This document shows, piece after piece, positions 653 to 39,602 of a stretch of DNA of 39,602 nt (positions are counted from its first letter, which is position 1; the number at the start of each line of letters is the position of its first letter). The translations under genes were made by a program, and so were the position numbers. Source of the stretch: an uncultured Planctomycetota bacterium (lineage in GTDB: Bacteria > Planctomycetota > Brocadiia > CAIUPP01); contig CAIUPP010000035.1 in assembly GCA_903901045.1 (NCBI GenBank), positions 1 to 39,602 on the forward strand, in the 5' to 3' direction. The notes below the pieces were generated by a model. It had not been told where the DNA came from. It searched no databases and saw nothing but the letters and a program-made list of their open reading frames with translations.

Positions 653-1783
653 ATGAGTAAAGTGAGCACTTTCCGAGATGCAAGCCAGAACTCCTCCCAA
701 CGCGTTGCAGAAGAGCTTCGGCATGCGCTGGCGGAGGGGAGGCCCTACCCGCATGGGCAATTACCTTCGCACCGCGAACTTTGCCGCCAGCACCGTGTTG
801 GCGTCAATACCTTGAGGAAAGCGCTTGACATTCTCGAACAAGAAGGAGTGCTCTACCGCGTTGAGCGCGGCGGCACGTTTCTTTCCACGACGTTGCCTCG
901 CCCCGCCATCTCTGCTACCGGCGCTTCTCTGAAATGCATCAACTTCCTGGAACAGTATCCGCCCCTCTGGACGTGGTTGAAAACGGACTACCTTGCCGGG
1001 TACACCGATGCGCTGGATCATGTGGACATTAAGATGCGTTTCGTTCCCTGTCCCCGGACTGTGACAAATTTCACAAGCCTCATTCTGGACCGGCTCGACT
1101 TGAAGGAGCAGGGGTGCGTGCTGGTGAACGTGGCGCCGCCGCGCCTGCTGGAGTGGCTGAGGGGACAGAATATTCCGTTCGTCGTTCAATATTTCACTGC
1201 TTACGAGCGGACCGACCTGCCGGAGCACCATAGCGTTTATGTCAACAAGACAGGAGCCGCGGCGGACGCCGTGCGCCATCTTCTGGAATTGGGGCATCGG
1301 CGAATCGGGTATGCAGGCCCCTTGCACCCGGGACAGGGTGTTGTGGGGCTGTATGAGGGCTATCGCGCCGCGTTGCAGTGCGCTGGGCTGGGCCAGACGC
1401 GGGTGAGCATTGTGGCCGAGGTCAATACCGACGACGTGTCGGCCGCGATGGGGCAGGCAACCGAATATCTCAGGCAACCGAATTGCCCAACGGCCATATT
1501 CGCCGGGACCGACGCGGTGGGGATTGCTCTTCTGCGGGCGGCCCAGTCACTCGGAATTGCCGTGCCGCGACAGTTGAGCGTGGTGGGTTTCAATGACCAA
1601 CCGGAAGCTGCCGCGAGCGTTCCTCCGCTGACTACCATGGCGGGCCCGCGCCGGCTGCTGGCTCGGACGGCGGTTGAGACGCTTCTGTCTGCCGCTGAAG
1701 GAAAGTTCGATTCGTTTCAGACGAAGATTCTGAACTGTCGGCTGGTCATGCGGCAGAGTACGGCGGCTCCGGAGAAAACGTAA
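653..1783 (+). CDS. GntR-LacI fusion transcriptional regulator
   Basis: The 376-residue protein has an N-terminal GntR-type winged helix (roughly residues 15-80, with the LPSHRELCRQ and NTLRKALDILEQEGVLYR segments typical of GntR recognition and wing elements). It is fused to a LacI/periplasmic-binding-protein effector domain (about 95-365, with LGHRRIGYAGP and VVGFNDQPEAA). This is the AraR-like architecture, in which a sugar relieves repression. ATG 653 was chosen because the longer frame would start inside the promoter; TGAGGA upstream is a fair ribosome site. The palindrome at 596-620 is probably its operator. It heads a seven-gene plus-strand run of secreted carbohydrate-active proteins, so a local glycan-derived inducer is likely. 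The sugar cannot be named. Confidence 0.9.
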   Translation: MSKVSTFRDASQNSSQRVAEELRHALAEGRPYPHGQLPSHRELCRQHRVGVNTLRKALDILEQEGVLYRVERGGTFLSTTLPRPAISATGASLKCINFLEQYPPLWTWLKTDYLAGYTDALDHVDIKMRFVPCPRTVTNFTSLILDRLDLKEQGCVLVNVAPPRLLEWLRGQNIPFVVQYFTAYERTDLPEHHSVYVNKTGAAADAVRHLLELGHRRIGYAGPLHPGQGVVGLYEGYRAALQCAGLGQTRVSIVAEVNTDDVSAAMGQATEYLRQPNCPTAIFAGTDAVGIALLRAAQSLGIAVPRQLSVVGFNDQPEAAASVPPLTTMAGPRRLLARTAVETLLSAAEGKFDSFQTKILNCRLVMRQSTAAPEKT

Positions 1784-1871
1784 GTTGTCAGCGATCGTCA
1801 TCCGTTCTCGCCGGTTTGGCGGACGTGCAGGCTCCTGATGGGTTAGGAAGGTTTTATTAGGAGGGCGTGTT

Positions 1872-3215
1872 ATGGCGAATGGTCTGAGAAGGTGGTTGTC
1901 GGCGTTCACGTTGATCGAGCTGTTAGTGGTAATCGCCATCATCGCTATTCTGGCCGGGATGCTCCTGCCGGCGCTGGCGGCGGCAAGGGAGAAGGCCCGC
2001 CGGACCGCGTGTGTGAACAACCTGAAGCAAATTGGCCTTGCCTTGGAGAGTTATAACAGCGACTACTCCGGGTACCTGCCGAGCTGGGCGGGTTGGGCTG
2101 GACCGGACTTTGACGTGTGTCTGCCGAACAAAACGGCCTGCGACGAAGCCGCCTCCCTCTACCACACGGCGGCCGGCGACTGCTGGAAGCTGAAATGGGC
2201 TCCTTTGGGGATGGCCGGGTCCATGTTCACAAACAAGCCCGGCGATGCGGCGATTCGCGTGGACGGTGGAGCGTTCGCCAGCACGCTGCGCAACGCGACG
2301 TTCAATGCCAGTTACCGTTGCATCGGCTGGGCGGTGAAGACCAGCGGTTCAACGGCGGCCGCGTGGAATCCCGGACTGCTCAACCAGGCGCCGGTGGGAA
2401 TCGGGTTTCTGCTGACCGCGGGATATCTTCCGGACGCCAAGACCTACTTCTGTCCCAGCGCGGACAACATGCTTGGGGACGCAGGCGATCTGGGCTACCA
2501 GGGCGTCACGCGGGTGGGCGATTTCCAGAAACTGGGCGGATTCGACGCCAAGTCCTTCCTCTATGGCGACCATCGGCTGTTCCCGTTCTACAACTCAACC
2601 TATCAGCACTACTACCGGATTACGCTCTCCCATTACAACTACCGCAACGTCCCCCTGGCCGTGGGGTCGAACAACTACGGAACCGTCTGGCATACGGCTC
2701 AGAATGGCACATTCAATCTGCCGGGCATCAAGCCGGCTATTAAGATGCGCATGAACCAACCGGCTTTCCGCACGGCGAAGGAATTGGGCAGCAGAGCGAT
2801 TGTGAGCGACACGTTCAGCAAGGGGGAGAAGTACGACGGCGCGGGTAACGATGTCAGCGCTTATAATGGGGTTGCCGATTGGGTGTCCGGACAGAAGGCC
2901 GTCGGCATGGGGATGCGGGCGCACCAGGTGGCCTACAACGTCCTTTATGGGGACGCGCACGTCAGTATGTACGGTGACCCCCAGATGCGCATTGCCTTCC
3001 ATCGTCAGGGACGCATGTATTACGGAACGCCCAAGAGCAGCACCGCGCCAAGCGATCCGGCCTATAACACAACTGGCTTTGGCCTCTCCACCAACCGTAT
3101 TCTGGCGGGCTTCATTGAGGGCATGGGCATTCAGAGTGACGACCTTTCCGGCACGGCGTATTCGGTGTGGCACGATTTTGACGTGTCCGCCAGCGTAGAC
3201 GTCAGCGCTCCATAG
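1872..3215 (+). CDS. Type II pseudopilin-like protein with HX9D C-terminal motif (first copy)
   Basis: The 447-residue protein starts with a short basic leader and the prepilin cleavage/methylation helix [19 protein letters not shown] (about residues 14-32), followed by [17 protein letters not shown] as in the large PVC and Planctomycetota pseudopilin families. The glutamate of FTLIE is the usual E5 residue after cleavage. The C-terminal region has YFCPSA, a HX9D motif ([11 protein letters not shown], with Ala where HX9DG proteins have Gly), MYGDPQ and a tail [11 protein letters not shown], all shared with the pseudopilins at 18457 and 34963. A strong AGGAGG site precedes ATG 1872. Expected to be inner-membrane inserted and cleaved by a prepilin peptidase encoded elsewhere; role in surface or periplasmic display is inferred. 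Confidence 0.92.
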
Positions 3216-3228
3216 ATTGCATGGCGAC

Positions 3229-3261
3229 CGGGCCGGGGCGCCACGCAGGTTCCCCGGCCCG
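3229..3261 (+). terminator. Strong GC hairpin between pseudopilin and LamG gene (first copy)
   Basis: CGGGCCGGGG (3229-3238) pairs perfectly with CCCCGGCCCG (3252-3261), a 10-bp stem with a 13-nt loop, just after the pseudopilin stop. No clear T-run follows, so it may be a partial terminator, an attenuator or an mRNA 3'-end stabiliser. Equivalent hairpins sit at the same place in the other two units (19779-19804 and 34909-34940). The remaining bases to 3516 show no gene and no convincing promoter. Confidence 0.7.
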
Positions 3262-3516
3262 TCTTGCCCGGATGCGCCGCGAAGAGCGATATCGCGCCCC
3301 TGGTTCGTTCCATCGATGCCCGGTCCGGGCCACTCCAAAAAGAAAGTTGTGGTCAGGGACCATCCTTCAGCTTATGCTTCCAGTGGAAGGGGGACTCCAG
3401 TGCGCGTCAATTTCACTCGCCGGCGTCCCTTTAACTGCGTGCGCGCCCAGTCACTGTGAATGGCGGCGGGCGGTTTCGCTTCGCGTTTCGAAGAGGCCAT
3501 GAGTAGGAGAAAACGC

Positions 3517-6500
3517 ATGATCGGGAGAGGACGACAGACAGGGTGTGGCGTCGCGCTGTTATGCGTTCTGGCGTTCGCTTTCGGAGCCGTGCCGGCAATG
3601 GCCGAGACGGAAGTTCTTCCCGGAGTCATTGCCAATTGGAATCTGGACGCGGGGGACGGCAAGGTTGCGCCGGATGCGTCGGGCAAGGGACACACGCTGA
3701 CGCTCAATGGCGCAGTCTGGGCTGAAGGGCGTTTTGGCAAGGGGCTGACCTTCGCAGACAAGGCCTATGCCACAGTGCCGGGGTGGAAAGAGCCCGGGTT
3801 GGCCGAGCAGTTCTCCGTCGCCGCATGGGTCAAATTCAGCAAGCTCGGGCAGGGGCGGCAAAAGATCGTCTACTGCGGCGAGAACCAGCAACGCTGCGTG
3901 AATTTTTCGATGGGCAAGAACGAATACGCCGACAAGATAGAGTTCCGTTTCACCACAGGCGGGGAGATTCGTCAAATCACCTCGGCCACGATTCTGAAGG
4001 TCAACACGTGGTACCACGTGGCGGTCACGTACAACGGTTCGCATATGTGCATCTATATCAACGGCAAGGAAGACAGTTCCGGCAAGGCGGCCGGGAAGGC
4101 CGATGGCGATGTTCCGTTGTCCCTGGGGACGATCGGCGGCAGTGACTATTTCCAAGGCTCCATGGACGAGGTGCAGATTTACGGCCGGGCGTTGAGCGCC
4201 GCAGAGGTGGCTCAGATGGCAGGCAAGGCGCAGACGACGGGCGCGGCGGCGGAACCCGCCCCGGTCAGGAAGGTGCTTCTCACTCCGGGCGGGGCTGCCA
4301 CGGCGTTGCTGTTCGATTGCGGCCCGAAGGAGCAGCAGGCAGCGCCGGGATCAACGTCCCTGAGCGGCCAGGATACGTATTCGCCCGAACAGGGCTATGG
4401 TTGGATCAAGGAATGGGGCTTTGACGCGGCCACGGCGGGGACCGCTCCCAAGACCACGGTGTTGGGCTCCTCGACCACCGCGCGGGAGCATGTGGATGCC
4501 CAGCCGGAACAGAACGACGTCACCTTTCGCGCGGACGTCCCGAACGGCGTCTATGCCGTCACCATCTGGGTGGGCGACGCGTCGCCGCGGGAAGGACGCC
4601 TCGGCACGTGCGTTGCGACCAACGGTCGGGCCGTTCTCCCGCCCCCCGGCGTGGGGGGATGGGGCGTCGTGACCGAGCGCACGCTTCCCGCCGTGGTGGA
4701 GGATGGCGCGCTGCTGCTCAACTTCTACGTCGTGGGCAAAGGGGGCGCGGCGCGGCTGGCCGTTCTGGGCTTCAAGATCGAGCCGGTCACGGCCCCCGAA
4801 AAGGAGGGCGTGCTTCGAAAGAAATGGCTTGAGAGCGAGATGAAGGGGGAAAAACCGCGCGAAGTCAAGATAGGCGAACAAACCTTTATGGAAGTCGGGC
4901 GGCGCCGCGAGATACCTCTCGGCGCCCTGTCCGGATCCTGGCAGGGGCTGCCGCTGCTGGTATTCACTCGGTCCAATCCGGGCGATATTCTGGACTACAG
5001 CATTCCGCGCAAAGAGGAAGTGACGGAGCGGCTCGGCGCGTTCGCCGCCCCCGACGAAGACCAACCGCTCTGGTTTGGCATTCACGCGCTTCGCGACCTC
5101 AGAGATGTCCGCGTCGTCTGTTCCGACCTGAAGGGGGCCGCCGGGGAGATCCCGGCCCGGGAGGTGGAAATGTTCACCCAGACCACACGGCTGCGCTCCA
5201 TGTCGGACCGCCCGGGCAGTTCGGTCACTTTCGCGTCCGATCTGCTTGAACAGAACATGCCGATTGACGTGGCCAAGGGCCAAAGTCAGCCGATCTACCT
5301 TCGCATCCATGTCCCGTCGAGGACTGCAGCGGGGTTCTATTCGGGTGTTGTGACCCTTACTGCCGAGGACACCAAGCAGGTGGAACTGCCCCTGTCGCTT
5401 CGCGTCCTCCCAATCACGCTTCAGTCCCCGCAGGACAAGGTGTGGCACCTGGCGACCGATGGAACGCGCTGGACTTCCATGACGCAGCCCCAGTGGCGCG
5501 CGGAGATTGACGATATGGCCCGGCACGGCATCAACAGCCTGGAGGTGGGCTATCCTCCCTTCGGCGTCACTTATATTGAGCAAGGCGGACGGATCGTTGA
5601 CTCGGACCTGGGTGTTACCGGCGAGATTCTCCAATATGCGGCGCAACGCGGCATGAAAGGGCCCGTGATCGTCGGCGCCACCCCGGGCATCTTCTGGCGC
5701 TGCCGGGGATGGGGGATCGGCCAGAAGGGGGCCGCGACGCATGAATTCACCGCGGGCCAGGAGGGACGGGCGCTGCTCTTGAAACATGCCGATGCCGACG
5801 CCCGTTCCGGAGTGGACCAATTGATCGGCGCTTTGCTGCCGCCAGGGGAGACCGTCGGACTGGAGGTCCGTTACCAGGTCTTGGGCGGCGGATCGGCGAC
5901 CGCTGACCTGACCTTCTGGAAGACGCACAAGCGCGATGCCGTTGCGGAAGGACGAGTGACCGGGACGTTGAAGGCCGGTGAGGGATGGCAGACGTTCAGC
6001 GCCGTCACCCGCGTCCCGCAGGACGCTCTCTATGGCCGCGTCAGCATCTCATTTAGCGGAGGGCCGGGCTCTGTCCTCATTGACGAAGTCCGCCTGGTGC
6101 GCGAAGGGAAAACGGTCAACCAGATTATCAACCCCGGCTTCGAGCGCGACCTGGACATCCCCTCTGAGACGGCCGAGGAATGGCCGGAGTTGTTCGCGCG
6201 CGATTTTGTCGATGCGATCCGCGCCCTCGGGCGCGGGGTGGAGCGGGTGGGATCGAAGGCCTGGATTGAGGGGACCGACGAGGCCAGCGGAACGCTGCGC
6301 GAAGTGAACGAAATGCGCGGCGCTCACGCCTCCGGCTTGCCGACCTACTGCAACCTCAATCCTGCGGCTATCGGCAAGATGGGCAAGGACCTCGACACGA
6401 TTTGTCTCTATTCGAGCTTTCTGGGCACGGAGGAGAATTGCGGCAATCTCCTGACCACCTACCACAGTCGGAACCAGAAGTTGTTCTTCATCGCCTCCGG

Positions 6501-8274
6501 CGCATACGTGGGGCAGGAATTCGATTTCATGCCCAATCGCCACAGCGTGGGGCTCTGCTTCTGGAAGAGCAAGGCGGATGGCACGCACGTCTGGACCTAC
6601 CAGCGGCCCAGCGGCGACCCCTTCAATGATCTGGACGGAGGCGTTAAGGACTACTGCATGGTCCTGCCGCCCCGCGCGCCGGGAGGCAAGCCGGTGCCGA
6701 CGCTGGGCTGGGAAGGCATTCGCGAGGGATGGCGGGACTTCAAGTATGTCTATACGCTGGAGCAGTCCGTGGCGCAGGCGGAGAAGGATGGCCGCGCGGA
6801 GGCCGCCGGCATGGGCCGCACCGTTCTGTCGTTTATCCGCGACACCGTGCCATGGTTTGACCAGTCCGGCGGCGTGGGCTACGACAATGCATCCGCCGAT
6901 CAGCTCCGGTGGCTTGCGGCGTGGGCGACGCTGGAAGTTCAGGAAGGCAAAGGGGCCGCGACCGCTTTCGTCGCGCCAGCCGGCGTGAAGCCGCTGGACG
7001 TCAAGTTCGCCTCCGCGCCTCCCGCGACGGCCGTGGCTCCGCTGCTTTGCGCCGTGACGGCGGAAGCCCCCGTGCTGGATGGACGGCTGGAGGATCCCCT
7101 CTGGGCCAAGGCGACAAAGATCGACGGGCTCAAGAGCTACCTGGACGCGAACGCGGCGGCGCGCCAGAAGACGGAGATTTTCCTCACCCATGACGCCGCG
7201 AATCTCTACATCGGCTTCCGCTGCTTTGAGCCGGCGATGGACCAGGTCAAGGCGACCGTTAAGGAACTCGATGGCAACGTCTTCGCCGATGACAGCATCG
7301 AACTCTTCCTCGATACCGCCAACGATGAGTTTAACTTCTTTCAACTGGCCTTCAATGTCGACGGCACGCGGTTTGATATGCGATGTGCCGGGGACAACAA
7401 CGCCGGAGCGAACGTCTTCGGAGCCAATTACGCGAAGCAGAAGGTTCGCGACGTGAAATGGAACGGCGAGTGGTCCGTGAAGACCAGCCGCCAGGCCGAC
7501 CGGTGGGAAGCGGAAGTGGTTCTTCCATTCAAGACCTTCGGACGCGAGAGCGACCTGTGGGGCATCAACCTCTGCCGAAATCGCAAGGCGGCCGAGCCGG
7601 AGACCTCCGCATGGCGGGCCTTTGGCTCCTTCCACCAACCGCAGAAATTCGGAAAGCTGCTCCTGACCGGGGCGCGCGGCGGGAAGTCGACGATCACGCA
7701 GGTCAGCCTGCCGCTCACCCGTTTCGGATTGAGCACAGCCGAGCTTCGTTTGAGCGGTGGCCAGGGACTCCAGGCGCGCACCGAGGTCACCAGTAAAAGC
7801 GGCCCGGCGCGGCGATTCGACGGCACTGCCGTAACGGAGGGCGTCGCTCGCCTGCCGTACAACCTGGATGAATCCGCGACGGCCCTCACCTATCTTATCG
7901 AAGAGAACGGCGCCGTACGGCACTGTATTCGGATGCCGGCGGAAGTTCCTTCGCCCATCGGCGTCATGCGCGGACAGAAGGTCCTTTCGACCGCCATGCC
8001 GCGCGGTGTGTTCCAGATGGCGATCCAGCTTTCCGAGCAGGAACAGACCCAGAGGCGCTTCCAGGTCACCCTGTCCGGTCCCGACGGCAAAGTCATTGAC
8101 CAGGCGGAATTGCCGCTGAGCGGCGCCGCTTGCTCGGTGTCGCTGAACCTCGACAAGTTCCCGCAGGGGACGTATGCGATGACGCTGGCACTGACGGGAC
8201 CGAAAGGCTCAACCCCGATTGAGCGACGCGAGGCCGTCGTTCTGGTTCCGCCGTTCCTGGCCGAGAAGAAGTAA
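3517..8274 (+). CDS. Giant secreted LamG / GH123-like (DUF4091) / CBM9-like protein
   Basis: The 1585-residue protein opens with a signal peptide ending AMA|ETE. ATG 3517 was chosen because AGGAG lies 7 nt upstream; in-frame ATGs at 3460 and 3499 lack such a site. Domains in order: LamG/concanavalin-like fold (about 36-235, NWNLDAGDGK to IYGRALSAAEVA); a beta-sandwich (about 264-425); a long GH123/DUF4091-like region (about 470-1145) ending in the family-typical WEGIREGWRDFKYVYTLE near 1064; and a CBM9-like domain (about 1174-1385, PVLDGRLEDPLWAKAT, ANLYIGFRCFEP, DSIELFLD). A beta-rich segment of about 150 residues (735-882, ending SVLIDEVRLV..NPGFER) appears to interrupt the barrel and looks like a CBM4/9-type module. 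Likely a secreted hexosaminidase-like or related glycosidase; substrate unknown. Confidence 0.85.
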   Translation: MIGRGRQTGCGVALLCVLAFAFGAVPAMAETEVLPGVIANWNLDAGDGKVAPDASGKGHTLTLNGAVWAEGRFGKGLTFADKAYATVPGWKEPGLAEQFSVAAWVKFSKLGQGRQKIVYCGENQQRCVNFSMGKNEYADKIEFRFTTGGEIRQITSATILKVNTWYHVAVTYNGSHMCIYINGKEDSSGKAAGKADGDVPLSLGTIGGSDYFQGSMDEVQIYGRALSAAEVAQMAGKAQTTGAAAEPAPVRKVLLTPGGAATALLFDCGPKEQQAAPGSTSLSGQDTYSPEQGYGWIKEWGFDAATAGTAPKTTVLGSSTTAREHVDAQPEQNDVTFRADVPNGVYAVTIWVGDASPREGRLGTCVATNGRAVLPPPGVGGWGVVTERTLPAVVEDGALLLNFYVVGKGGAARLAVLGFKIEPVTAPEKEGVLRKKWLESEMKGEKPREVKIGEQTFMEVGRRREIPLGALSGSWQGLPLLVFTRSNPGDILDYSIPRKEEVTERLGAFAAPDEDQPLWFGIHALRDLRDVRVVCSDLKGAAGEIPAREVEMFTQTTRLRSMSDRPGSSVTFASDLLEQNMPIDVAKGQSQPIYLRIHVPSRTAAGFYSGVVTLTAEDTKQVELPLSLRVLPITLQSPQDKVWHLATDGTRWTSMTQPQWRAEIDDMARHGINSLEVGYPPFGVTYIEQGGRIVDSDLGVTGEILQYAAQRGMKGPVIVGATPGIFWRCRGWGIGQKGAATHEFTAGQEGRALLLKHADADARSGVDQLIGALLPPGETVGLEVRYQVLGGGSATADLTFWKTHKRDAVAEGRVTGTLKAGEGWQTFSAVTRVPQDALYGRVSISFSGGPGSVLIDEVRLVREGKTVNQIINPGFERDLDIPSETAEEWPELFARDFVDAIRALGRGVERVGSKAWIEGTDEASGTLREVNEMRGAHASGLPTYCNLNPAAIGKMGKDLDTICLYSSFLGTEENCGNLLTTYHSRNQKLFFIASGAYVGQEFDFMPNRHSVGLCFWKSKADGTHVWTYQRPSGDPFNDLDGGVKDYCMVLPPRAPGGKPVPTLGWEGIREGWRDFKYVYTLEQSVAQAEKDGRAEAAGMGRTVLSFIRDTVPWFDQSGGVGYDNASADQLRWLAAWATLEVQEGKGAATAFVAPAGVKPLDVKFASAPPATAVAPLLCAVTAEAPVLDGRLEDPLWAKATKIDGLKSYLDANAAARQKTEIFLTHDAANLYIGFRCFEPAMDQVKATVKELDGNVFADDSIELFLDTANDEFNFFQLAFNVDGTRFDMRCAGDNNAGANVFGANYAKQKVRDVKWNGEWSVKTSRQADRWEAEVVLPFKTFGRESDLWGINLCRNRKAAEPETSAWRAFGSFHQPQKFGKLLLTGARGGKSTITQVSLPLTRFGLSTAELRLSGGQGLQARTEVTSKSGPARRFDGTAVTEGVARLPYNLDESATALTYLIEENGAVRHCIRMPAEVPSPIGVMRGQKVLSTAMPRGVFQMAIQLSEQEQTQRRFQVTLSGPDGKVIDQAELPLSGAACSVSLNLDKFPQGTYAMTLALTGPKGSTPIERREAVVLVPPFLAEKK

Positions 8275-16437: not shown

Positions 16438-16529
16438 CCGAAAGAGGGGACGATAGACGAGAATGGCTGGCGGGGGAACTCATCAAGGTCGTGAGTTCAT
16501 GCAGGAAGTTTCCATCTGAGAGAAATCGA

Positions 16530-18245: not shown

Positions 18246-18456
18246 CCCCTCCGGGCATCCGGCGCTTACACTGGAAAAGGGGGTGATACAGAGAGAGTGA
18301 GAGTGAATGAAGTACAGTATCGGGCTTTGTGGAGACGCTGTTTGGGCAATCGTGATGAACCACAGGTCGATAGGAAAGGGCAGATCGATGGAAGCGGTTA
18401 TGTGTGGGCTGGTGATTTTGCTGTTCGCGCGTGTCTTGTTTGGAAGGAGACAGCCG

Positions 18457-27222: not shown

Positions 27223-27286
27223 GAGTCGTGAACTCCCTTAAAATACCGAAATGATAACCCTGTGAGATGCGTGAGGCCCCTTCGCG

Positions 27287-28282: not shown

Positions 28283-28313
28283 GAGACTGTCTTCCTTAAT
28301 AACAATGGATTGA

Positions 28314-28329
28314 TAGCATACGATTGCTA
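28314..28329. promoter_or_regulatory. LacI-type operator
   Basis: TAGCA (28314-28318) and TGCTA (28325-28329) are inverted arms around a 6-nt spacer with a central CG, the arrangement typical of LacI-family sites. It abuts the -10 box of the regulator promoter. Confidence 0.55.
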
Positions 28330-28357
28330 GTGTAATCCTTCTGAGGCCGGAAGTCAA
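28329..28357 (-). promoter_or_regulatory. Promoter of the LacI regulator
   Basis: On the minus strand TTGACT (28357-28352) and TACACT (28334-28329) are separated by 17 nt. The start would fall within the operator at 28314-28329, about 40 nt before the GTG codon at 28282. Confidence 0.6.
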
Positions 28358-28376
28358 CACGATCCGCACCTATGGG

Positions 28377-29055: not shown

Positions 29056-29970
29056 TCAGCCGAGCCACTTGGCATGCTTGTTGACCATGATTCCCCGGCA
29101 TTTGTGATAGACGTCTTCCGAGAAACAGTGATACGGAGAGAGAAGGCGCAGCGGCATTTCGACTCCGGCTATTCGGGCAAGCATCTTGTCATAAGCCCCG
29201 TCGACAGGGTCACGGAACTTCGTTGGCTCAAGGAAGTCGTGGATGACTTGGGCCATCCCTCCCGCAATGGCAAGTGCCTCGCCAGACCGCCCGCGGCTGT
29301 CGGCATCATAAAGTTGCTTCGTCTTCGTCGGCATCATGCCGCCAAAAGAACTGAGCATCGAGCATTCTCCATACAGGCAACCGTAGGGGAAGAGGAACTC
29401 GCCGAAGAAGTGCTGAAGGTCCGGCGCGTTCGTCATCAGGTCCACCACGCGCATGACGCTGTCGCCCGTGTTCTTGGTCGCAACCAGGTTCGGCACTTCG
29501 TCGGCAATGCGTCGGTAGTCCGAACCGTTCAGGAGCCTCTTGGCGCGCATAAGGTTGTAGTGAAGGAACTTTGAGTCGGGGAAAGCGCCGCACACGTCCC
29601 TGAAGAAGGTCCGCATTTCATCGTTGTCGAGGACTCCCCACGACGGGAGCGAAATCTGAAATTCGCGGAATCCCAACTGGTGGGCAAACGCGATTCGTTC
29701 TACGATGTTCGCCGTGGAAAGGCCGATGGTCCCCACCTGAGGAAAGACGCCGGCTCCCTTTGTCTCTTCCCGGAAGACCGTGACGACCTCGCGGAAACGT
29801 TCCGTATCCACGGCGTAACCTTCCCCGCACGTGCCAAACACGTACACATGGTTGAACCCCTTGGCCAGGAGGTCACGCACGAGTTGACGGAACGCGCCCT
29901 CGATCAGGCGTTCCTTATCATCCCACGGGCAAACCGTCGAAATCAGCATTGCTTGTGGATACCTCGCCAT
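29056..29970 (-). CDS. DapA/NanA-superfamily class I aldolase
   Basis: The 304-residue TIM-barrel lyase of the dihydrodipicolinate synthase / N-acetylneuraminate lyase superfamily has the carboxylate-binding motif GTCGE (46-50, variant of GTTGE), the catalytic tyrosine Y138 in FLHYN and the Schiff-base lysine K166 in LVATKNTGD. In a carbohydrate operon such paralogues usually cleave or dehydrate 2-keto-3-deoxy sugar acids or sialic-acid-like compounds rather than make lysine precursors; this is inferred. ATG 29970 lies two bases behind the stop of the amidohydrolase remnant, whose last codons contain the ribosome site. The remnant and this gene were once translationally coupled. Confidence 0.9.
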   Translation of the reverse strand: MARYPQAMLISTVCPWDDKERLIEGAFRQLVRDLLAKGFNHVYVFGTCGEGYAVDTERFREVVTVFREETKGAGVFPQVGTIGLSTANIVERIAFAHQLGFREFQISLPSWGVLDNDEMRTFFRDVCGAFPDSKFLHYNLMRAKRLLNGSDYRRIADEVPNLVATKNTGDSVMRVVDLMTNAPDLQHFFGEFLFPYGCLYGECSMLSSFGGMMPTKTKQLYDADSRGRSGEALAIAGGMAQVIHDFLEPTKFRDPVDGAYDKMLARIAGVEMPLRLLSPYHCFSEDVYHKCRGIMVNKHAKWLG

Positions 29971-30353: not shown

Positions 30354-33300
30354 TTATCGCTCACCGAACACAAACTCGCCGAAATTGGCGTCCAAGTTGA
30401 AGAACCCGCCGCCTGAGTAGGCCCAGCCGGAGAGAGTCGCCTGGCCTCCCTGGCGGAACAGCCCGGCGGTCCAGACGTCCCCCTTCTTCGGGGCAGGGAC
30501 GCCGAAATCGGACCAGGGGATTGCCACCTCGGCCTGCCAGGAAATCTGGAAGCCAAAGTCGGTGGCCGCCTTCCATGTGCCGTTCCAGTCCACATTAGCC
30601 AACTTCACCTGCGGGTCGTCATACACCCCGTCCCACTGTCCGCCGCCGGCGCTGACGCAGAACTGGTAGACCTTGTTGACCCCCTTAGGCATGAGGTAAA
30701 TCTCGATATTCGGTGGCTGGCAGCACTGGCGCGCATCGTGGGTCAGCTTGGTTGGCAGCCGCAGGATCGCTTCGATGCAGCGCGCGCCGACGTACAGGTT
30801 CTTGTCGTCATAACCGACGTAGTAGGTCGTTTGGCCGCCGGGAACATCCAGCCGGGCGGCTTTCGCCCAGTCGGCATCGTTCAACGCGCCGGTCAGCGGC
30901 GGTGGGGTGGGCATGTACGAGATCACCGCTTGTTTCCGCTGGACCTTCAACTCCACTTTCTCCGAGGCAGGGCGGGGGACGAAGCGGAAGTCGGAAACGT
31001 ACGCGCTTCCGGCCGGCAGCGTCCAATACAGCGCGGACGTGCGCTCCCAGTCCGCCTTCGGGTGGGTGTCGAACTGGTCCTCCAGGATCGTGAACTCCTT
31101 CCAGCCGGCGAAGTCCAGCGGGATCTTCTTGACGAAAGCGTTAGCGCCGTTCCCGAATGCGAAGATCAGTTCTCCCTTCGCCGAGCCGCCATTCACCTTG
31201 AAGGTCACTCCCTTGGTCCCCTCGAAAGGGGAGTTGAACGGACTGATGATCCGGCCCGGACCGGTCATCTTCCAGCAGGGAAGACCATCGAACTTGTCCG
31301 CCTCGATCTTCGCCGAACCCTGGTCGCGCAGGTAGCTGAGGGCGTAGTCATTGTACTCGTTCCGTTTCACCGGCGTCAGCGGCGCCGGTTGGCCGCCCTG
31401 CGCCCGGGTCACCACGATCTGGGTATCGCCTCTGGCGACAGGGACTTTTGCGAAGTTCTGGCCGCCGAACGCCAGCGTCTCGCAGGCCACCGGCTTTCCG
31501 TTCACAGACGCCTGCGCCCCCTGCCATCCGGCCGGCAAGAGCGCAAGGATTTCGGCGGCGTCGGCCTCGCTGCGGACGGTCAGACGCACATCATTCGCGG
31601 CCATCGCGCCGTCAATCGCCACGCCGCGGCCGCTGGACATCAGATAGTTCATCCGCCGTCCGTCCGCGGAGTACACAAAGCCAGGAACCTGGCTCAGCGT
31701 GGTCATCCTGAGGATGTTGTACTTCAATCCCGGCGCAACGATCGTGAGCGCGCCGGCTGCGGGGGTGAGGATGTCGAACTGATACGACTCGGAGTCATAC
31801 GACTCGCGCAGATGCTCCGTAACCGGGGGGTGATAGTGAGCGTGCTCGATGAGCGGCTGAATCTGCCAGACATAAACGGGCCGCTGCGGGTCCAGCGCCA
31901 GGCCGGCCAGCGAAAGGGTGATGCTCTCCGTCCGGGTTTCCTCCGCATGGTTGACCACGGGCAGGAGGTAGCTGTTCCCTTGCTTGAGGAAGGCGCTCTC
32001 GAGCGTGGTCGTTTCAAAGGTCCACCAGTTCGGGTGGACGTTGTTGTTGACCAGAAGTTCGTTGTCTTTGACCTCGTAGGACAGGTCGCTGAACAGCAGC
32101 GTATGGGCGATGCCGAGGCTGCTCCACAGCGTTCCCAGGTGCGGCTTGAGGCCGTACATGGCGTAATGGTTGGAGTGGCCTTGTGAACTCCAGTAGAGAA
32201 TGCAATTGATGTTGGGCGGACGCATGGCGCGCGCCATGACATAGGCCATGTTGGCCATCGTGCGCCAGTCCTTCTTGTCAATCGGGTCGAAGGGGGCGCC
32301 GTACTCGAAGTAGCCGCCGTGCGAGGTGTCCGGGTAGCAGCCGCCGTTCTGGAAGTGGATTTTGCCCATCTCCTCGGCCACCAACTTCATCCCGCGCAGG
32401 ATGATGTGCGAGTGGTAATTGTGGACGAAGTTCATCTGCGGGAAGAAGTTGACCGCCTCGCTGTGGCCGCCGTCCACGTAGGTCATGTCCACGTCGAGGT
32501 TCTTGAGCATCTCGCGGCGCTGGTTGAGGATGAAATCCACCTGGTCCTGGGTGACGCAGTTCAGGAAGTAGTTGTAGGTCTCGCCGGAGCCGTACTGGCA
32601 GAGGTCGCCATTCTGGTTGCGCAGCAGCCACTCCGGGTGCTCCTGGTACGTCTTGGACTTATCGGAGGCGCTGCCGTACCATGTATAGAGTCCGAGACGC
32701 ATGCGGGCCGGGTCGAGCGCGTGGAACTTCTCCAGGTCCTTGTTGATCGAATCGGCGCTGCGTACGGCGGGATGCGTGCCGGTTCTATTCAGCGGAAGGA
32801 TGGTTCCTTTGGAGGCATAGTCGCCGGTGATCATCACGTCGCTCAGGAAGGTCGGCAGCATCTCGCCGGGAGCGCAATCCGCCAGGATGTTCTCCGCCCG
32901 CCCGTTGCACCAGCCGGTGTTGTAGGCGATGCTGTCATAATCATAGTGACCGACCGTCTTGACGCGATGCCACCATTCCGGCACTTTGCTCCTGGCCATC
33001 TCCGCCATGTCGGGCAGGTTCATCATGTGATCGTGGAAGGCGCGCGCGTCCCCGTCCAGAACGGCCAGGTGCGTCTCAGCGGAAAAGAAATATCCCTCCC
33101 GGACCACGTCGCCGCTGATGTATCCTTCCCATCCCTGGGGGTCAAGATAACCCTGGTCTTCAATGACATCCGGCATGAAGGCGATGGTGAAGAAGCGCTC
33201 ATAGTGTCCATTGATCTTGAACCGATAGTGGCTGAACATCAGGTTCGTCTTCGGCTGCTGATAGGCGAAAAAAGAACTACTCAAGTCTTGGATGGGCTTG

Positions 33301-34874
33301 CGGGCCTTGACCTCGCTGCCAAGGGCGAAGGGGACAGTCCCGGTTCCGGGGCCGCTGCCGCCGTCCCAGATCGGGCGGTAGATGTAGCCGTCCTTGCAAA
33401 AATCCGGCGTCATCGTCAGGGCCGAGCGAAGGAAAAATAGCTTGCCGTCGTTCGCGTCCGTCGTGGCGCGGAAATAGACGACTTTCGTGACGTAGTCCTT
33501 CTCCAGTCGATACGCTTTCGTCAATTCGATATCCGGCAGGCCGGGGTTGGTGCAGACCAGTTCAAAGCCGTCGGGCTTGCCTTCGGCGCCCTGGCGGAAG
33601 CCGATCACCTTGTCGTTCGCTTCGGAGACGCGCGGACTGTCCTTGTCGCCGAAGAGGTAGATGTCATGGCTCTCCTGGACCACCGAAGTGTTGTCCGGCA
33701 GGTGTACGACGCGAACAACCTGGCCAGTGACGGGGGAGATTTCGCACTCGACCTTGTCGCTGCGCAGCGTCAGTTTGGCCGGCGGGGCCGAGGTGGGGCG
33801 CTGCTCCGGCGTGCGGGTCAGTCCGATGTACGGGCGCGCGGGGTATTTGGGAATCTTGAACGACCCGGTCGAAATGACCTCTTTATTCGGCGCGCGTAAT
33901 GTGGCGCGGATTTCATAGTCGCCAGCCGGCCACTCCGTGGAGGGGAAGGTCACGACGACCTTGCGCGGATCGGCCATTCCCTCCAGTGTGCGCGCGGCCA
34001 CGGGTTTCTCCTGCCCGGCGGCGAGTACTTGGACGTCCACGGCTGGCTTGAATGGCAACGTTTCCGCGCCGGAGAGGTCGAGCGCAACGTGCAAATTCTT
34101 CCCCACGAAGAACGGCAGAGGACGGAAGCCCACGTCAATGACCGGGATTATCTTGTTGTCCTTCGGGGCGTCCGCGGCGAGCGCCTGGATCTCCTGGCCG
34201 GAGAGGGTGCGGTTGTAGATGCGGACGCCGGCCAGAGCGCCCTTGAAGAACATCTTCAGCTCAGGACCGTACCGGCCCTTGCCCAGGACGAGGTTGACGG
34301 GGGTCTCAATCCAGATCAGCGGGTTCTCCGTGCGCGCGCGCGTGGTGTCCAGCGCGCCGTCAATGTACAGCCGCTCCTCGTGTGTCTGCAGGTCGTACAC
34401 CACCGCCACGTGATGCCACTCTCCCACCGGCAGGACGCCCTTTGAAACGGTGGAGGTCCAGTGCTTCTCAGGGACGTCGGAAATGGTGGTGAACCCGACG
34501 TTCCCCTTGTCGGACAAGTAAACGTTGTAGTCGGCCTTGCCAACGACGTAATACTTCTGTTGCTTGGGCAAGGGGGCGTCGCGCATGACCCACATCGCGA
34601 TGCTCAAAGGACCGGGAATCCCCAGCGTTTTCCCGTTGCCGCAGTCCACGTAGGATTGGACGCCGTCGAACTGAAGCGCGAAGCCGCCCGCGCGCTTGAC
34701 CCAGTGCGCGCCGGCGATATTGCCGATATTGCCATTGCCGCTCTTGTCGGCCAGGGCCGCGCCGGAACCCTCCGAAAGGGGGTACCAGGCCGCCAAGCCT
34801 TCTTCCGCCCGCGCTGCCGAGGCGGCGGCAAGCGCCACGATGCACGCCAAGACAAGGAAACAAGAGCGACTCAT
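30354..34874 (-). CDS. Giant secreted LamG / alpha-galactosidase-like / CBM9-like protein
   Basis: The 1506-residue protein has a signal peptide ending ARA|EEG (residue 23). ATG 34874 has AAGGAG 8 nt upstream; the longer TTG start at 34880 is less likely. Domains in order: LamG (about 28-232, AAWYPLSEGSG to VRIYNRTLSGQEI), beta-rich region (about 245-620), a TIM barrel (about 640-960) reminiscent of alpha-galactosidases of GH36/GH27 type (TYQEHPEWLLRNQNGD near 731, LDVDMTYVDGG near 798 with the candidate catalytic aspartate), a beta domain, and a C-terminal CBM9-like module (about 1320-1505, LTGALNDADWAKAARLD, NLYVGARC, NIEIYLMPKG). It is separated from the pseudopilin by a hairpin, as in the other two units. 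Likely extracellular; substrate unknown. Confidence 0.85.
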   Translation of the reverse strand: MSRSCFLVLACIVALAAASAARAEEGLAAWYPLSEGSGAALADKSGNGNIGNIAGAHWVKRAGGFALQFDGVQSYVDCGNGKTLGIPGPLSIAMWVMRDAPLPKQQKYYVVGKADYNVYLSDKGNVGFTTISDVPEKHWTSTVSKGVLPVGEWHHVAVVYDLQTHEERLYIDGALDTTRARTENPLIWIETPVNLVLGKGRYGPELKMFFKGALAGVRIYNRTLSGQEIQALAADAPKDNKIIPVIDVGFRPLPFFVGKNLHVALDLSGAETLPFKPAVDVQVLAAGQEKPVAARTLEGMADPRKVVVTFPSTEWPAGDYEIRATLRAPNKEVISTGSFKIPKYPARPYIGLTRTPEQRPTSAPPAKLTLRSDKVECEISPVTGQVVRVVHLPDNTSVVQESHDIYLFGDKDSPRVSEANDKVIGFRQGAEGKPDGFELVCTNPGLPDIELTKAYRLEKDYVTKVVYFRATTDANDGKLFFLRSALTMTPDFCKDGYIYRPIWDGGSGPGTGTVPFALGSEVKARKPIQDLSSSFFAYQQPKTNLMFSHYRFKINGHYERFFTIAFMPDVIEDQGYLDPQGWEGYISGDVVREGYFFSAETHLAVLDGDARAFHDHMMNLPDMAEMARSKVPEWWHRVKTVGHYDYDSIAYNTGWCNGRAENILADCAPGEMLPTFLSDVMITGDYASKGTILPLNRTGTHPAVRSADSINKDLEKFHALDPARMRLGLYTWYGSASDKSKTYQEHPEWLLRNQNGDLCQYGSGETYNYFLNCVTQDQVDFILNQRREMLKNLDVDMTYVDGGHSEAVNFFPQMNFVHNYHSHIILRGMKLVAEEMGKIHFQNGGCYPDTSHGGYFEYGAPFDPIDKKDWRTMANMAYVMARAMRPPNINCILYWSSQGHSNHYAMYGLKPHLGTLWSSLGIAHTLLFSDLSYEVKDNELLVNNNVHPNWWTFETTTLESAFLKQGNSYLLPVVNHAEETRTESITLSLAGLALDPQRPVYVWQIQPLIEHAHYHPPVTEHLRESYDSESYQFDILTPAAGALTIVAPGLKYNILRMTTLSQVPGFVYSADGRRMNYLMSSGRGVAIDGAMAANDVRLTVRSEADAAEILALLPAGWQGAQASVNGKPVACETLAFGGQNFAKVPVARGDTQIVVTRAQGGQPAPLTPVKRNEYNDYALSYLRDQGSAKIEADKFDGLPCWKMTGPGRIISPFNSPFEGTKGVTFKVNGGSAKGELIFAFGNGANAFVKKIPLDFAGWKEFTILEDQFDTHPKADWERTSALYWTLPAGSAYVSDFRFVPRPASEKVELKVQRKQAVISYMPTPPPLTGALNDADWAKAARLDVPGGQTTYYVGYDDKNLYVGARCIEAILRLPTKLTHDARQCCQPPNIEIYLMPKGVNKVYQFCVSAGGGQWDGVYDDPQVKLANVDWNGTWKAATDFGFQISWQAEVAIPWSDFGVPAPKKGDVWTAGLFRQGGQATLSGWAYSGGGFFNLDANFGEFVFGER

Positions 34875-34908
34875 TGGCAAGACTCCTTACAGGTGGGTTC
34901 TTGGGGGA

Positions 34909-34962: not shown

Positions 34963-36330
34963 CTAGTTCAGGTTGTACGGGTAGTCCGGCGCGTCGACAT
35001 CTATGCTGTTGCTGGCATCCAGCAAGTGCCAAACCTCCACCGCGCTGATATTTCGATACGAGGCAGTGTCCGGGTTCTTCCCGGTCCGGAACGTGCCATT
35101 GTCCGTGCCGTCCGGCGCCCAATTGTAAATGCCGTTGACCTGGATGGAGGCACTGAACGTGTAGGTGCTCGGCCAGGTATCGGCGTAGTAGGAAGGGAGC
35201 CACCACATGATCTGCTGCTGCGGGTCGCCGTACCAGCGCGCGCTCCAGTCGCCGTAGAGAACGTTGTAGCCGTCGCGGTGCGCGTACTGTCCCTTGCCGA
35301 CGAACGGCGTGTTGCCGTAGGTGCTGTTGTAGTAGCAATCAGCCTGAGAGAAGCTGTCGCTCACCAGCGCGCGCCCGCCCAGTTGCTTCTGCGTCTTGAA
35401 GATAGGATTTCCGGGGCGCACCCGCTGGGCCGGCTTGATGTGCCGCATCCTGACGCCGTCCGTCAGATGGTTGGCAACCACTGCGTTCGACATGTTGTAC
35501 CATGTGCTCAGTCCCACCATCGCCGGGACGTCGCGGTAATTGTAGTTGCTCTGCACGGCGCGGAAATACAGTCCTTTCGCGTAGTTGTCCGAGTTCATGC
35601 CCGAACTGACCCAATTCAGGTTTGTCATGTTACCGTGGCTGATTGAGTTGGCATCAAATCCTCCGAACGTGCGCAGGTCTCTTGGCGACGCCGCTGCGAA
35701 CATCGGCTTATTCTTGATGCTGAGCGCCGAGCCGGCGGCCACTTCGCCGGAGTCGGCGGGCATGTTGTCCCCGGCAGAGGGACAGAAGAACGTCCGCGCA
35801 TCGCCCATATATCCGCAGTCGAGCAGGTAGCCCAAGCCGATCCCGGTCAGGTTGAAATGGCCTGCTGCGCGCGCCTTTCCGTCCGCGGTGGTCCACGGCG
35901 TGTTGCTCGTTTCCTTCTGCCCCACATAGATTGTGCGGAAGTACCAGACCGGCAACCGGTTAATCGTGGAGCTGGTCTCGCCGTTCGTCCGCCAATCGAA
36001 TCCGCCCGTACGCAACTCTTCGCCAAGCTTCGTGTCCTTGACGATGCCCGCATCTGCGCAGTTCCAGACGCCACAATTGCTGCTGGAAACGGCGCCGGTG
36101 AATCCGCCATAGCCCGGCCAGCAAGGAAAGTACGAACCGAAGTCACTGCAGTAGCTCTCCAGACCCCGGCTCATCTGGCTCAGGTTGTTCAAGCAGGCCG
36201 TGCGTCGCGCCTTTTCCCGGGCCGCCGCCAAGGCCGGCAGAAGCATTCCGGCCAGAATTGCAATAATCGCTATCACCACAAGCAGTTCGATCAACGTGAA
36301 CGCCGCACTCCACCTCTGCAAAGACCTCAT
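34963..36330 (-). CDS. Type II pseudopilin-like protein with HX9D C-terminal motif (third copy)
   Basis: The 455-residue protein starts MRSLQRWSA and then the prepilin helix [19 protein letters not shown], with [19 protein letters not shown] behind. It shares with the others [35 protein letters not shown], the HX9D motif [20 protein letters not shown] and the tail [20 protein letters not shown] precedes the ATG. It is the first gene of a minus-strand operon whose promoter at 36541-36569 matches the consensus exactly. Cleavage by prepilin peptidase and assembly by a type II/IV machinery are expected from the family; neither is encoded here. Confidence 0.92.
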
Positions 36331-36584: not shown

Positions 36585-37334
36585 ATGCCAATCATGCTGA
36601 AACCGCTAGCGCGTGATTCCCTGATCAACCGCGCTGTGGAGACAATCCACAACTATATCATTGACCGGGAGATGAAGGGGGGAGACCCTTTGCCCTCCGA
36701 GCGGCAGATGGCCAGCGCGCTGTTCATCAGCCGGGTGACACTTCGGAATGCCCTGGCAGTTCTGGAAGGAAGGGGGACTATTCACCGCGACCGGTCCGGC
36801 GCGGCGGTGGTCGCGCCGACCATAGGCATGCGACACGCGGGCGATCCGGAGAAGTTGCGGAGTGAATTGGCGCGCCTCAGAAACTTACGATCCGTCGCCG
36901 AAGTGGGCGCTGCCGAATTCGCCTGCCGTCATCGCACCGACGAAGACGTGGCGCGCCTGCGCGACATCGTGGGCGACATGTCCAGGGAGAACAAGGCGGA
37001 GCATTCCATCACAAGCAAGGACGCGGCGTTCCACTTCGCGCTGCTCCGTTGCGCCGGGGAGTTGTTTGTCCCGACATTCGGCGAAATGATTCGGGAGTTC
37101 TTTCGCCTGGCGACGGCCGCCCGTCCCTTGGTCATGACCAATCCGCAGAACGAGGATATCATCCTGGAGCACACACACATGGTGGATGCGCTCGAAAGAC
37201 GTGACCCATGCGCGCTGCGCGCCCTCCTGATCCAATCGTATGATAAGGACAAGGCTGGCCTCAGCGCCACGGTTCAAAAACGCGTCACGGACAAACCGAT
37301 GGAAACTGATGAGCGGATGTTCGCACGCGCATAA
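36585..37334 (+). CDS. FadR-subfamily GntR transcriptional regulator
   Basis: The 249-residue protein has an N-terminal GntR winged helix (about 15-75: PLPSERQMASALFISRVTLR, LAVLEGRGTIHRDRSGAAVV) and an all-helical FCD effector domain (about 90-230) with potential metal ligands in SKDAAFHFALLRC and EHTHMVDALERRD. FCD regulators usually sense carboxylic or sugar acids such as uronates. ATG 36585 was chosen because GGAGG lies 9 nt upstream; an upstream in-frame ATG at 36462 would run across the operator. The gene is divergent from the pseudopilin-LamG operon and shares with it the palindrome at 36516-36537. A sugar acid inducer would fit the DapA-like aldolase in that operon; this is inferred. 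Confidence 0.9.
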   Translation: MPIMLKPLARDSLINRAVETIHNYIIDREMKGGDPLPSERQMASALFISRVTLRNALAVLEGRGTIHRDRSGAAVVAPTIGMRHAGDPEKLRSELARLRNLRSVAEVGAAEFACRHRTDEDVARLRDIVGDMSRENKAEHSITSKDAAFHFALLRCAGELFVPTFGEMIREFFRLATAARPLVMTNPQNEDIILEHTHMVDALERRDPCALRALLIQSYDKDKAGLSATVQKRVTDKPMETDERMFARA

Positions 37335-37337
37335 CCC

Positions 37338-37666: not shown

Positions 37667-37694
37667 AGGACTGGTGTAATATGCCTTTCCGCAT

Positions 37695-37700
37695 TATAAT
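37695..37700 (+). promoter_or_regulatory. Possible -10 box for the ROK gene
   Basis: TATAAT is a perfect -10 sequence 64 nt before the chosen GTG start. No good -35 box lies at 16-18 nt upstream (TGGTGT at best), so support is limited. Confidence 0.3.
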
Positions 37701-37764
37701 TACTCGGTCAAGCAGCCAAAGGCCGTTCTTGACGCAGAGCAATTCTCCATTTGAGGTGCCAACG

Positions 37765-39045
37765 GTGCGAGCGAATCAGAAGCCGGATGGCTTCTACCGC
37801 AGCAGCAAAGCGCAGCACAGGCAACTAGTTTTTCAGGCGCTTTATCATCAGGGACCCATCAGCCGATACAAGTTGGCTGAAGTTCTGAAGTTGCGATACC
37901 GCACCCTCCGGCGCTTGCTGAGCGAGATGTTGCATGAAGGGATCATTCAGGAAAGCGGCAATGTGATCGTTCGCCGCGGCCGCGCCCCGATCTTTCTGAG
38001 CGTCAATCCGCATGGCGGTCGAATCATCGGCATTGCCCTTGACGCCTGCGAAGTCACAGGGGTGTTGGTGGGGCTCGACCTATCGTTGCAGCGCACCAGC
38101 CATGCAAAGATCGGCCGGAATTCCTCTCGCAAAGCGATCCTGGAGAACATACACTCCGTCATTGCCGAACTGCGTCAGTCGCCCGAAGGGCGGATGGCGC
38201 CTTTGTGCGGCATTGGCTATGGGGAATATGGGCTTGTGGATGCGAACGCAGGAGTTGCCGTGCGCAGCACTTACCATCGCGCATGGCACGATGTTCCCAT
38301 CAAAGAGCAACTACAGAAGAGCTACGGCGTGCCGGTCAGCATCGAGACCGAAGAACGCTGCGTGCTCCTGGCCGAACACATTTGGGGGGCCATTCCCGAT
38401 ACCCAGACCGCCTTGCTCATCGAAGTGACCAGTGGGATTGGCTTTGCCGTGCTGGATCGAGGAGAACTGTTCTCTGGCGCGCGCGGGTTCGGTGGAGAGT
38501 TGGGACATATCCGTCTCGTTCGTGACGGAGACGCCTGTCCGTGCGGTTCGCGCGGCTGTTTGGAAACGGTGGTAAGCACGCGCGGGATCATCGAGGAAAT
38601 GCGCCAAGGTCTTAGGCATGAAAGGGGCGGGACGCCTGCGGGGCACGCCGATAGGGTGACCTTGGAAAGAGTCATTCAGTCGGCCATGCAGGGTGATGCT
38701 TTGGCCGGCCATGTGGTGGGGAAGACGGCCTCGTATCTGGGCCAAGCTGCCGGCATCGCCATCAACCTGTTCAACCCGGATGCCGTCCTGCTGCGCGGTG
38801 AAATGTTTCGGGTGGGCGGCTCCTGGCTCTTGGACACTGTGCAGCATGAGGCGGACTCCTGCGTGCTCAAAGAACTGAAGATGGGCGTTCGATGGCGTCT
38901 TTCAATGCTGGAAAGCGCGGCCGCACGGGGAGCTGCCGCCCGCGTTTTCGCGGAGATATTCGGCTTCAATCTGTCACTCTTGCCGCGGCCCGCTGTGCCG
39001 ATCCTTGAGAAGAGCCGGCGCACGATGGCGCGTGAAGGGCGATAG
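37765..39045 (+). CDS. ROK-family transcriptional regulator (NagC/XylR/Mlc type)
   Basis: The 426-residue protein has an N-terminal winged helix (about 15-65: HRQLVFQALYHQGPISRYKL, RTLRRLLSEMLHEGIIQESG) and a ROK sugar-kinase-like domain (about 85-400). ROK marks are GARGFGGELGHIRLV with the metal-binding histidine and the cysteine motif C258-P-C260-GSRG-C265-LE that binds zinc in the family. The presence of the helix-turn-helix makes it a regulator rather than a kinase. GTG 37765 with TTGAGGTG upstream was preferred; the frame is open to 37588 and ATG 37681 is possible but would overlap the TATAAT at 37695. It precedes the fourth pseudopilin and probably controls it. Confidence 0.88.
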   Translation: MRANQKPDGFYRSSKAQHRQLVFQALYHQGPISRYKLAEVLKLRYRTLRRLLSEMLHEGIIQESGNVIVRRGRAPIFLSVNPHGGRIIGIALDACEVTGVLVGLDLSLQRTSHAKIGRNSSRKAILENIHSVIAELRQSPEGRMAPLCGIGYGEYGLVDANAGVAVRSTYHRAWHDVPIKEQLQKSYGVPVSIETEERCVLLAEHIWGAIPDTQTALLIEVTSGIGFAVLDRGELFSGARGFGGELGHIRLVRDGDACPCGSRGCLETVVSTRGIIEEMRQGLRHERGGTPAGHADRVTLERVIQSAMQGDALAGHVVGKTASYLGQAAGIAINLFNPDAVLLRGEMFRVGGSWLLDTVQHEADSCVLKELKMGVRWRLSMLESAAARGAAARVFAEIFGFNLSLLPRPAVPILEKSRRTMAREGR

Positions 39046-39210
39046 ACGACTCTGGCCCGGGTGGATACTGCGAAGAATCGAAAGTGCGTCTCAAGGTGCC
39101 TTGCCGTCGCAACTCGGGGAGAGCCGGAAGACAGGGCAGCCGGCTGCTCCTTGGGGGTAGCTCGATAGGCTCTCGATTTCCGGTGCATCCGGGCATTTCC
39201 CATTTTCGTC

Positions 39211-39240
39211 TTGACATATTCCCGCCGCGTGCTATATTAT
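39211..39240 (+). promoter_or_regulatory. Promoter of the fourth pseudopilin unit
   Basis: TTGACA (39211-39216) is a perfect -35 box. TATATT (39233-39238, 16-nt spacer) or TATTAT (39235-39240, 18-nt spacer) can serve as -10. It lies about 85 nt before the pseudopilin ATG. The rest of the ROK-to-pseudopilin gap (39046-39210) holds a 12-bp palindrome GCAGCCGGCTGC but no gene. Confidence 0.7.
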
Positions 39241-39247
39241 GCGCATA
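39238..39247. promoter_or_regulatory. Palindrome at the transcription start
   Basis: TATGCGCATA is a perfect 10-bp palindrome at the -10/+1 junction of the promoter at 39211. Its position suits a repressor site, with the ROK regulator upstream as the likely binder; the site is short, so chance is possible. Confidence 0.4.
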
Positions 39248-39323
39248 GGCACAATACATGATGTGGACGATTGCGTGTTTCCCGGGTGTGCCGGGGAACG
39301 AGTGCTTCTTTGGAGGGCGTGTC

Positions 39324-39602
39324 ATGCAAGAGGCGCGACGGATGTCGAGGAGGTTCTGGTCGGCGTTCACGCTGATCGAGCTGTTAGTCGTCATCGCGAT
39401 CATCGCCATTCTGGCCGGGATGCTGCTGCCGGCGCTGGCGGCGGCGCGCGAAAAAGCGCGGCGGTCGGCCTGCCTGAACAACCTGAACCAGATGGCCAAG
39501 GCGCTGGAGAGCTACTGCAGCGACTATGCCGGTTACTTCCCCTCGTGGGCCGGTTCGGGCACGAATTTCACCTGGTGCAAGAACAGCGGGGGAGCCTGGA
39601 CC
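39324..39602 (+). CDS. Type II pseudopilin-like protein, N-terminal part (fourth copy, cut by window end)
   Basis: The first 93 residues are present: a basic leader ([14 protein letters not shown]), the prepilin helix [19 protein letters not shown], then [20 protein letters not shown] and [16 protein letters not shown], as in the complete copies. GGAGG lies 8 nt before ATG 39324. The HX9D motif, the C-terminal tail, the hairpin and a LamG gene are expected beyond the window. Confidence 0.92.

Follow-up and report, generated by a model that had tools for sequence, protein, structure and literature searches.

Long DUF1559-type pseudopilins paired with sugar-type regulators and secreted enzymes in an uncultured planctomycete

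How planctomycetes and their relatives, lacking SusC/SusD, capture and import large polysaccharides is an open question. The window analyzed here is the whole of a contig of 39,602 nucleotides (CAIUPP010000035.1) from an uncultured Planctomycetota bacterium. The contig belongs to a draft genome of 4.77 Mb (94% complete, 3% contaminated). An earlier note on this DNA described three complete units, each combining a regulator, a pseudopilin and a giant LamG protein, the latter two in fixed order, with a fourth at the right edge, and read them as a system resembling polysaccharide utilization loci (PULs) and built around pseudopilins. Matches to Pfam and NCBIfam profiles, by which the parts were identified, confirmed the three complete units (regulator, DUF1559-type pseudopilin of about 440 amino acids and secreted LamG protein of 1,508–1,940 amino acids), the fourth unit behind a ROK regulator, and the assigned regulator classes (two GntR-LacI fusions, a FadR-type GntR and ROK). 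The recurrent unit with a dedicated pseudopilin therefore stands, but LamG is not its constant partner. Throughout the genome the strongest link of the pseudopilin is to its regulator, not to LamG, and a sugar-type regulator is the constant partner. As the function of the pseudopilin we tentatively favor, at somewhat less than even confidence, that of a minor pilin, specific to its locus, which binds glycans as part of a shared filament.

Coupling of the pseudopilins to sugar-type regulators

A profile built from the three complete pseudopilins of the window gave 88 matches in the genome, corresponding to about 57 long members (~440 amino acids). The LacI-type effector domain (PF13377) was found above cutoff at 44 places, and 30 of these lie upstream of a pseudopilin within 1.7 kb, against about 0.7 expected (by assuming ~3,400 genes, an estimated count). 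GntR domains adjoin pseudopilins in 23 of 41 cases, and AraC domains in one of nine. In the 20-kb stretches processed with a custom gene caller (1.48 Mb in total, with approximate start sites), a regulator stands directly upstream of 35 of the 60 long copies and within two genes of 42, three more being hidden by contig ends. The remaining genes of these stretches give a background of 36 of 920 (3.9%), and none of the 15 short or machinery-type pilins, which were kept apart as an internal control, has an upstream regulator. Tandem pseudopilin pairs were recognized at three loci of the host genome (L007, L015 and L058) and at five (L193, L197, L201, L206 and L210) of G001, a genome from the host's family but from another genus; several of the pairs lie beside one cargo gene or regulator.

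The full-length family exists in only two of the 75 genomes sampled from the class, namely the host and G001. The arrangement in G001 is the same: of 26 upstream genes, 13 encode a LacI effector domain and, in an overlapping set, 13 encode one of the GntR type, so that regulators make up at least half of them. Full-length relatives were also found in the Planctomycetota metagenome-assembled genome UR.bin147, in which three full-length pseudopilins stand in tandem behind one GntR-LacI regulator (L080, 4178-9848). In the wider superphylum (Planctomycetes, Verrucomicrobia, Chlamydiae; PVC), a non-random sample of 76 shorter DUF1559-type pilins, chosen by N-terminal similarity, contained 11 with such a regulator directly upstream, and all 11 belong to Lentisphaerota (11 of 30, against 0 of 46 in other PVC members). 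The proteins encoded next in these Lentisphaerota units include GH42-like, DUF4838, heparinase-like, sulfatase and GHL10 proteins. The cultured Victivallis vadensis DSM 14823 has the regulator-pseudopilin order at two loci (L118 and L143), in the first of which a GH42-like protein follows.

The presence of dozens of sugar-responsive regulators, each with its own pilus-type gene and secreted enzyme gene, suggests a separate fiber subunit for each polysaccharide. No earlier description of a regulator-pilin-enzyme pairing was found in the open-access literature on DUF1559 and pseudopilins in Lentisphaerae, Verrucomicrobia and Planctomycetes. Large DUF1559 families are already known; what appears to be new is their pairing with sugar regulators, which lies within known kinds of system (PUL-like loci and pilus-mediated glycan capture).

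Divergence of the pseudopilin family and its cargo

All four pseudopilins of the window begin with the same pilin start, which in the three complete copies continues into a divergent part of about 370 residues. The start has the signature of type IV pilins and pseudopilins: a charged leader, a small residue before F or M, E at +5, and a hydrophobic helix of about 20 residues. PF07963 and TIGR02532 score above cutoff, AlphaFold predicts an N-terminal helix, and the N-terminus matches solved pilins and GspG. PF07596 (DUF1559) exceeds its gathering score (28.9–44.8 against 23.3 bits), the match covering only the first ~38–52 of 268 positions. The cutoff of the GspG major pseudopilin model TIGR01710, on the other hand, was not reached (34.6–37.1 against 88.85 bits, over the first ~58 residues only). 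The class III signal, the N-terminal helix and this partial similarity are shared with GspG/H/I/J/K, from which the present pseudopilins differ in being much longer and in lying outside a gsp operon. The HX9D motif pointed out previously was verified, H351 and D361 being invariant across the three full copies of the window, and an H-x9-D(G) motif near the C-terminus is strongly conserved among 54 paralogs; no NCBIfam H-X9-DG model matched the window pseudopilins at E < 0.001. Among the same 54 paralogs, mean identity is 76% over the first 70 residues and 31% over the remainder. Judged from sequence, such a conserved N-terminus with a varied distal part is as expected for a common polymerization core with diversified binding domains.

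These proteins resemble the paralogous DUF1559/PF07596 (SBP_bac_10) family of Planctomycetes in their N-methylation motif and PF07596 start, in the H-x9-D(G) motif, and in reaching tens of copies per genome. They differ from the published families in their length of ~440 amino acids with a long distal domain, in their coupling to sugar regulators, and in the restriction of the long form to one family of the class sample. Published accounts of DUF1559 offer a solute-binding guess and no further function or genetic logic (PMC2754498, PMC10632474).

The size of such families elsewhere, 74 genes in R. baltica (PMC2754498) and 68 in P. limnophila (PMC10632474), would suit an explanation free of any glycan role, namely that paralogs multiplied within one lineage and came to lie beside regulators through block duplication or recombination, no function being shared. 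However, the classes of regulator do not follow the branching of the pseudopilin tree (28 changes against 25.9 after shuffling), and the correlation between pseudopilin and regulator distances is weak (Mantel r = 0.11, p = 0.045), which indicates that through reassortment the pairing was either retained or established again; moreover, G001, UR.bin147 and Lentisphaerota show the pairing as well. That entire units were copied as blocks is thus unsupported as the source of the pattern, and because regulator adjacency persists while the partners reassort, functional coupling is favored over it; we consider an absence of any glycan role very improbable. On the tree of the distal domain, the host and G001 copies are interleaved (14 changes against 23.4 shuffled), so that much of the diversification predates the split of the two genomes, with later expansion.

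The genes next to the pseudopilins are more varied than the window suggests. In the genome survey proposed beforehand as the test of the LamG association, the gene after the pseudopilin encodes LamG in 11 of 48 cases in the host genome, against about 0.5 expected, so the predicted excess over chance holds there. The other 37 next genes lack LamG, however, as do 16 of 17 (all but one) in G001, the sole related genome used for this tally. LamG as a constant partner was accordingly rejected, and the fixed order of pseudopilin and LamG, correct inside the window, fails as a general rule. Next genes are long (median 771 against 348 amino acids) and more often signal-peptide-like (52% against 24%, by a simple heuristic). 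Their domains include LamG, CBM9, GH123_N, DUF4838, beta-helix, PcRGLX, rhamnosidase and beta-N-acetylglucosaminidase, and a few are of cytoplasmic enzyme types (aminotransferase, xylose-isomerase-like). The cargo of G001 consists of other, mostly glycan-related or uncharacterized proteins. Taken together, the cargo proteins are diverse, most of them being secreted and many related to glycans. DUF4838 (PF16126) recurs next to the pseudopilin, four times in the host genome, twice in G001 and at one Lentisphaerota locus, which suggests a common glycan-related role for this uncharacterized domain.

The nature of the cargo bears on the main rival to a glycan-binding pilin, a cargo-specific adaptor of the type II secretion system (T2SS), in which the minor pseudopilin of each locus would recruit the neighboring secreted enzyme, or push it, through a shared GspD secretin. 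The proposal of the earlier note, that each pseudopilin may serve to secrete its cognate LamG enzyme, is possible and weakly favored by a modest clustering of LamG on the pseudopilin tree (9 changes against 12.1, with 7 of 500 shuffles as low); it is taken up here in a form widened from LamG to all cargo. The tendency of the adjoining downstream gene to encode a large, secreted protein, and the GspE/GspD-like machinery of the genome, would agree with it, as would the higher frequency of homologous cargo (at 100 bits) among close pseudopilins, 6 of 37 pairs against 33 of 2174, although two pairs among the 37 consist of tandem copies with one common cargo gene. In most close pairs, however, the cargo is unrelated, tandem pseudopilins share one cargo gene at L007 and L015, and known T2SSs serve many substrates with one fixed pseudopilin set. 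We rank the adaptor below glycan capture and regard it as rather unlikely. Glycan capture by a pilin would fit the fiber and pilus precedents of the superphylum at least as well as LamG secretion does.

Organization of the units in the window

Unit 1 lies entirely on the forward strand. Its regulator (653..1783) combines a GntR helix-turn-helix with a LacI-type effector domain (PF00392, PF13377). The pseudopilin of 447 amino acids (1872..3215), with a class III signal (SA/FTLIE) and the H-x9-D motif, matches PF07963, PF07596 and the pseudopilin profile, and in part TIGR01710 and TIGR02532. It is followed by a secreted cargo protein of 1,604 amino acids (3460..8274) with LamG, GH123_N and CBM9 domains. 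Four accessory genes complete the unit: one without assignment (8291-9091), two without a Pfam match (11093 being the end of the first, which starts at 9072 or 9201, and 11117-13276 the span of the second), and a Gfo/Idh/MocA oxidoreductase (13273-14364). The two proteins encoded at 9201-13276, of 630 and 719 amino acids, match no Pfam family.

Unit 2, also on the forward strand, begins with a GntR regulator with a LacI-type effector domain (15313..16437, in an open reading frame (ORF) of 15259-16437). A protein with a GH123 N-terminal domain (16434..18245; PF22680) is inserted between it and the pseudopilin (18451..19755; PF07596, PF07963), the ORF of which opens at 18307, with a start at about 18451-18457. 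The cargo (19899..25721) is a protein of 1,940 amino acids with four LamG and two Big_7 domains.

In unit 3 the regulator, of the FadR type (GntR and FCD; 36585..37334, forward strand), is divergent from the other genes, so that, with the inserted gene of unit 2, gene order is slightly variable among the units. On the reverse strand follow a pseudopilin of 455 amino acids (34963..36330; PF07596, PF07963), a LamG protein of 1,508 amino acids with weak similarity to GHL6/Melibiase (30354..34880), and an aldolase of the DHDPS/NanA-type family (29056..29970; PF00701). The more distal genes of the same strand (25972..28369), a LacI regulator (27287-28369) and a Gfo/Idh protein (25972-27222) by Pfam, are of uncertain membership in this unit. 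The three LamG giants have in common an N-terminal signal and LamG, and differ in their other domains. Unit 4, on the forward strand, consists of a ROK regulator (about 37765..39045, ORF 37588-39045; PF00480) and a pseudopilin (39324..39602; PF07596, PF07963) that is cut by the contig end at 39,602.

A candidate pilin-based route for glycan capture

Both the window units and the loci across the genome join a local regulator to secreted glycan-active enzymes, and are in this broad sense PUL-like. They share with the SusC/SusD PULs of Bacteroidota a regulator, a gene for surface glycan handling and secreted glycan enzymes, in many loci per genome. Here, however, a pilin occupies the conserved central position. 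No TonB-dependent receptor barrel (PF00593) was matched in the whole genome, although its LacI-effector regulators number 44 and its glycan enzymes are many, and SusC is thus lacking; SusD was absent from the Pfam matches of the window, a genome-wide search for it not having been made. The genome does encode PilB/GspE-type ATPases, PilT family members well above cutoff, and PilQ-like and GspD-like secretins, none of these pilus or secretion engine genes being inside the window. PF00437 occurs at 16 places in the genome, seven of them strong PilB/GspE-type matches, and secretins at only four, giving many engines per outer-membrane channel.

Precedents for pilin-type glycan handling exist in the superphylum. 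Gold-labeled dextran was found on pili-like fibers of P. limnophila and G. obscuriglobus (PMC5394234), and MUL2A of Akkermansia, a type IV-pilin-like protein accompanied by the PilM-like MUL2B, takes part in glycan attachment and uptake in Akkermansiaceae (PMC13174399). A third precedent is the adhesion of pili to chitin in Fimbriiglobus (cited in PMC11131199). MUL2, the mucin utilization locus 2, is, however, one conserved locus with pilus-assembly genes, whereas the present pseudopilins, whose glycan role would be comparable, occur dozens of times in scattered positions, mostly with a regulator and an enzyme to themselves, and the Pfam matches of the window units include no assembly gene, of the PilM type or any other. 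The carbohydrate-active enzyme clusters of Planctomycetota have been described as not yet functionally characterized (PMC11131199).

A glycan-binding pilin is favored because of the coupling to sugar regulators, the contrast of an invariant core with distal domains that have diversified, the lack of TonB barrels and these precedents. Each unit would then be a glycan-utilization locus with a filament subunit to itself. Its sugar-type regulator in the cytoplasm (LacI/GntR, GntR-FCD or ROK) would sense a breakdown product and control the locus, whose first or second structural gene encodes the pseudopilin; its near-invariant N-terminus could enter a shared type IV or type II filament, and its distal domain of ~370 residues would bind the cognate polysaccharide, or the complex of this with its enzyme, at the cell surface. 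We infer that PilT-type retraction may pull the glycan up to the outer membrane or across it, where the secreted or periplasmic enzymes of the neighboring genes (LamG/GH123, DUF4838, beta-helix, PcRGLX-like, sulfatase and others) would receive it. The pseudopilin would thus be a pilin-based counterpart of SusD.

Several points weigh against this reading. About one quarter to one third of the long copies have no recognized regulator within two genes; the AlphaFold predictions of the distal domain are of low confidence (mean pLDDT of 52 and 31 in two runs), and a glycan-binding fold is not demonstrable; the modest co-clustering of LamG with pseudopilin clades is also compatible with cargo secretion; and ordinary outer-membrane porins could import oligosaccharides after digestion outside the cell. 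The same genetic evidence would also agree with surface attachment alone, the pseudopilins being locus-regulated adhesins that hold cells on the digested particle with no part in uptake or secretion. Adhesion to chitin by the pili of Fimbriiglobus (Planctomycetota), as cited in PMC11131199, also favors this, but dozens of separately regulated versions suggest a substrate-specific step, and attachment would leave glycan import unexplained given the absence of TonB-receptor barrels; we think attachment alone improbable.

Returning to glycan capture, its broadest form is that dozens of separately regulated, glycan-specific minor pilins in a shared retractable filament take the place of TonB-dependent capture, both in Lentisphaerota and in one Planctomycetota family or more, as a pilin-based equivalent of SusCD; this we put forward as possible, though doubtful. 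Dextran-binding fibers have been observed, yet the literature examined does not tie them to specific subunit genes, and the DUF1559 families, among the most expanded gene families of the phylum, are without an assigned function. The regulator-pilin-enzyme order offers a shared, directly testable explanation for both. It also provides a genomic marker for glycan loci that would be missed by SusC/SusD-based PUL detection, including those of the cultured Victivallis vadensis.

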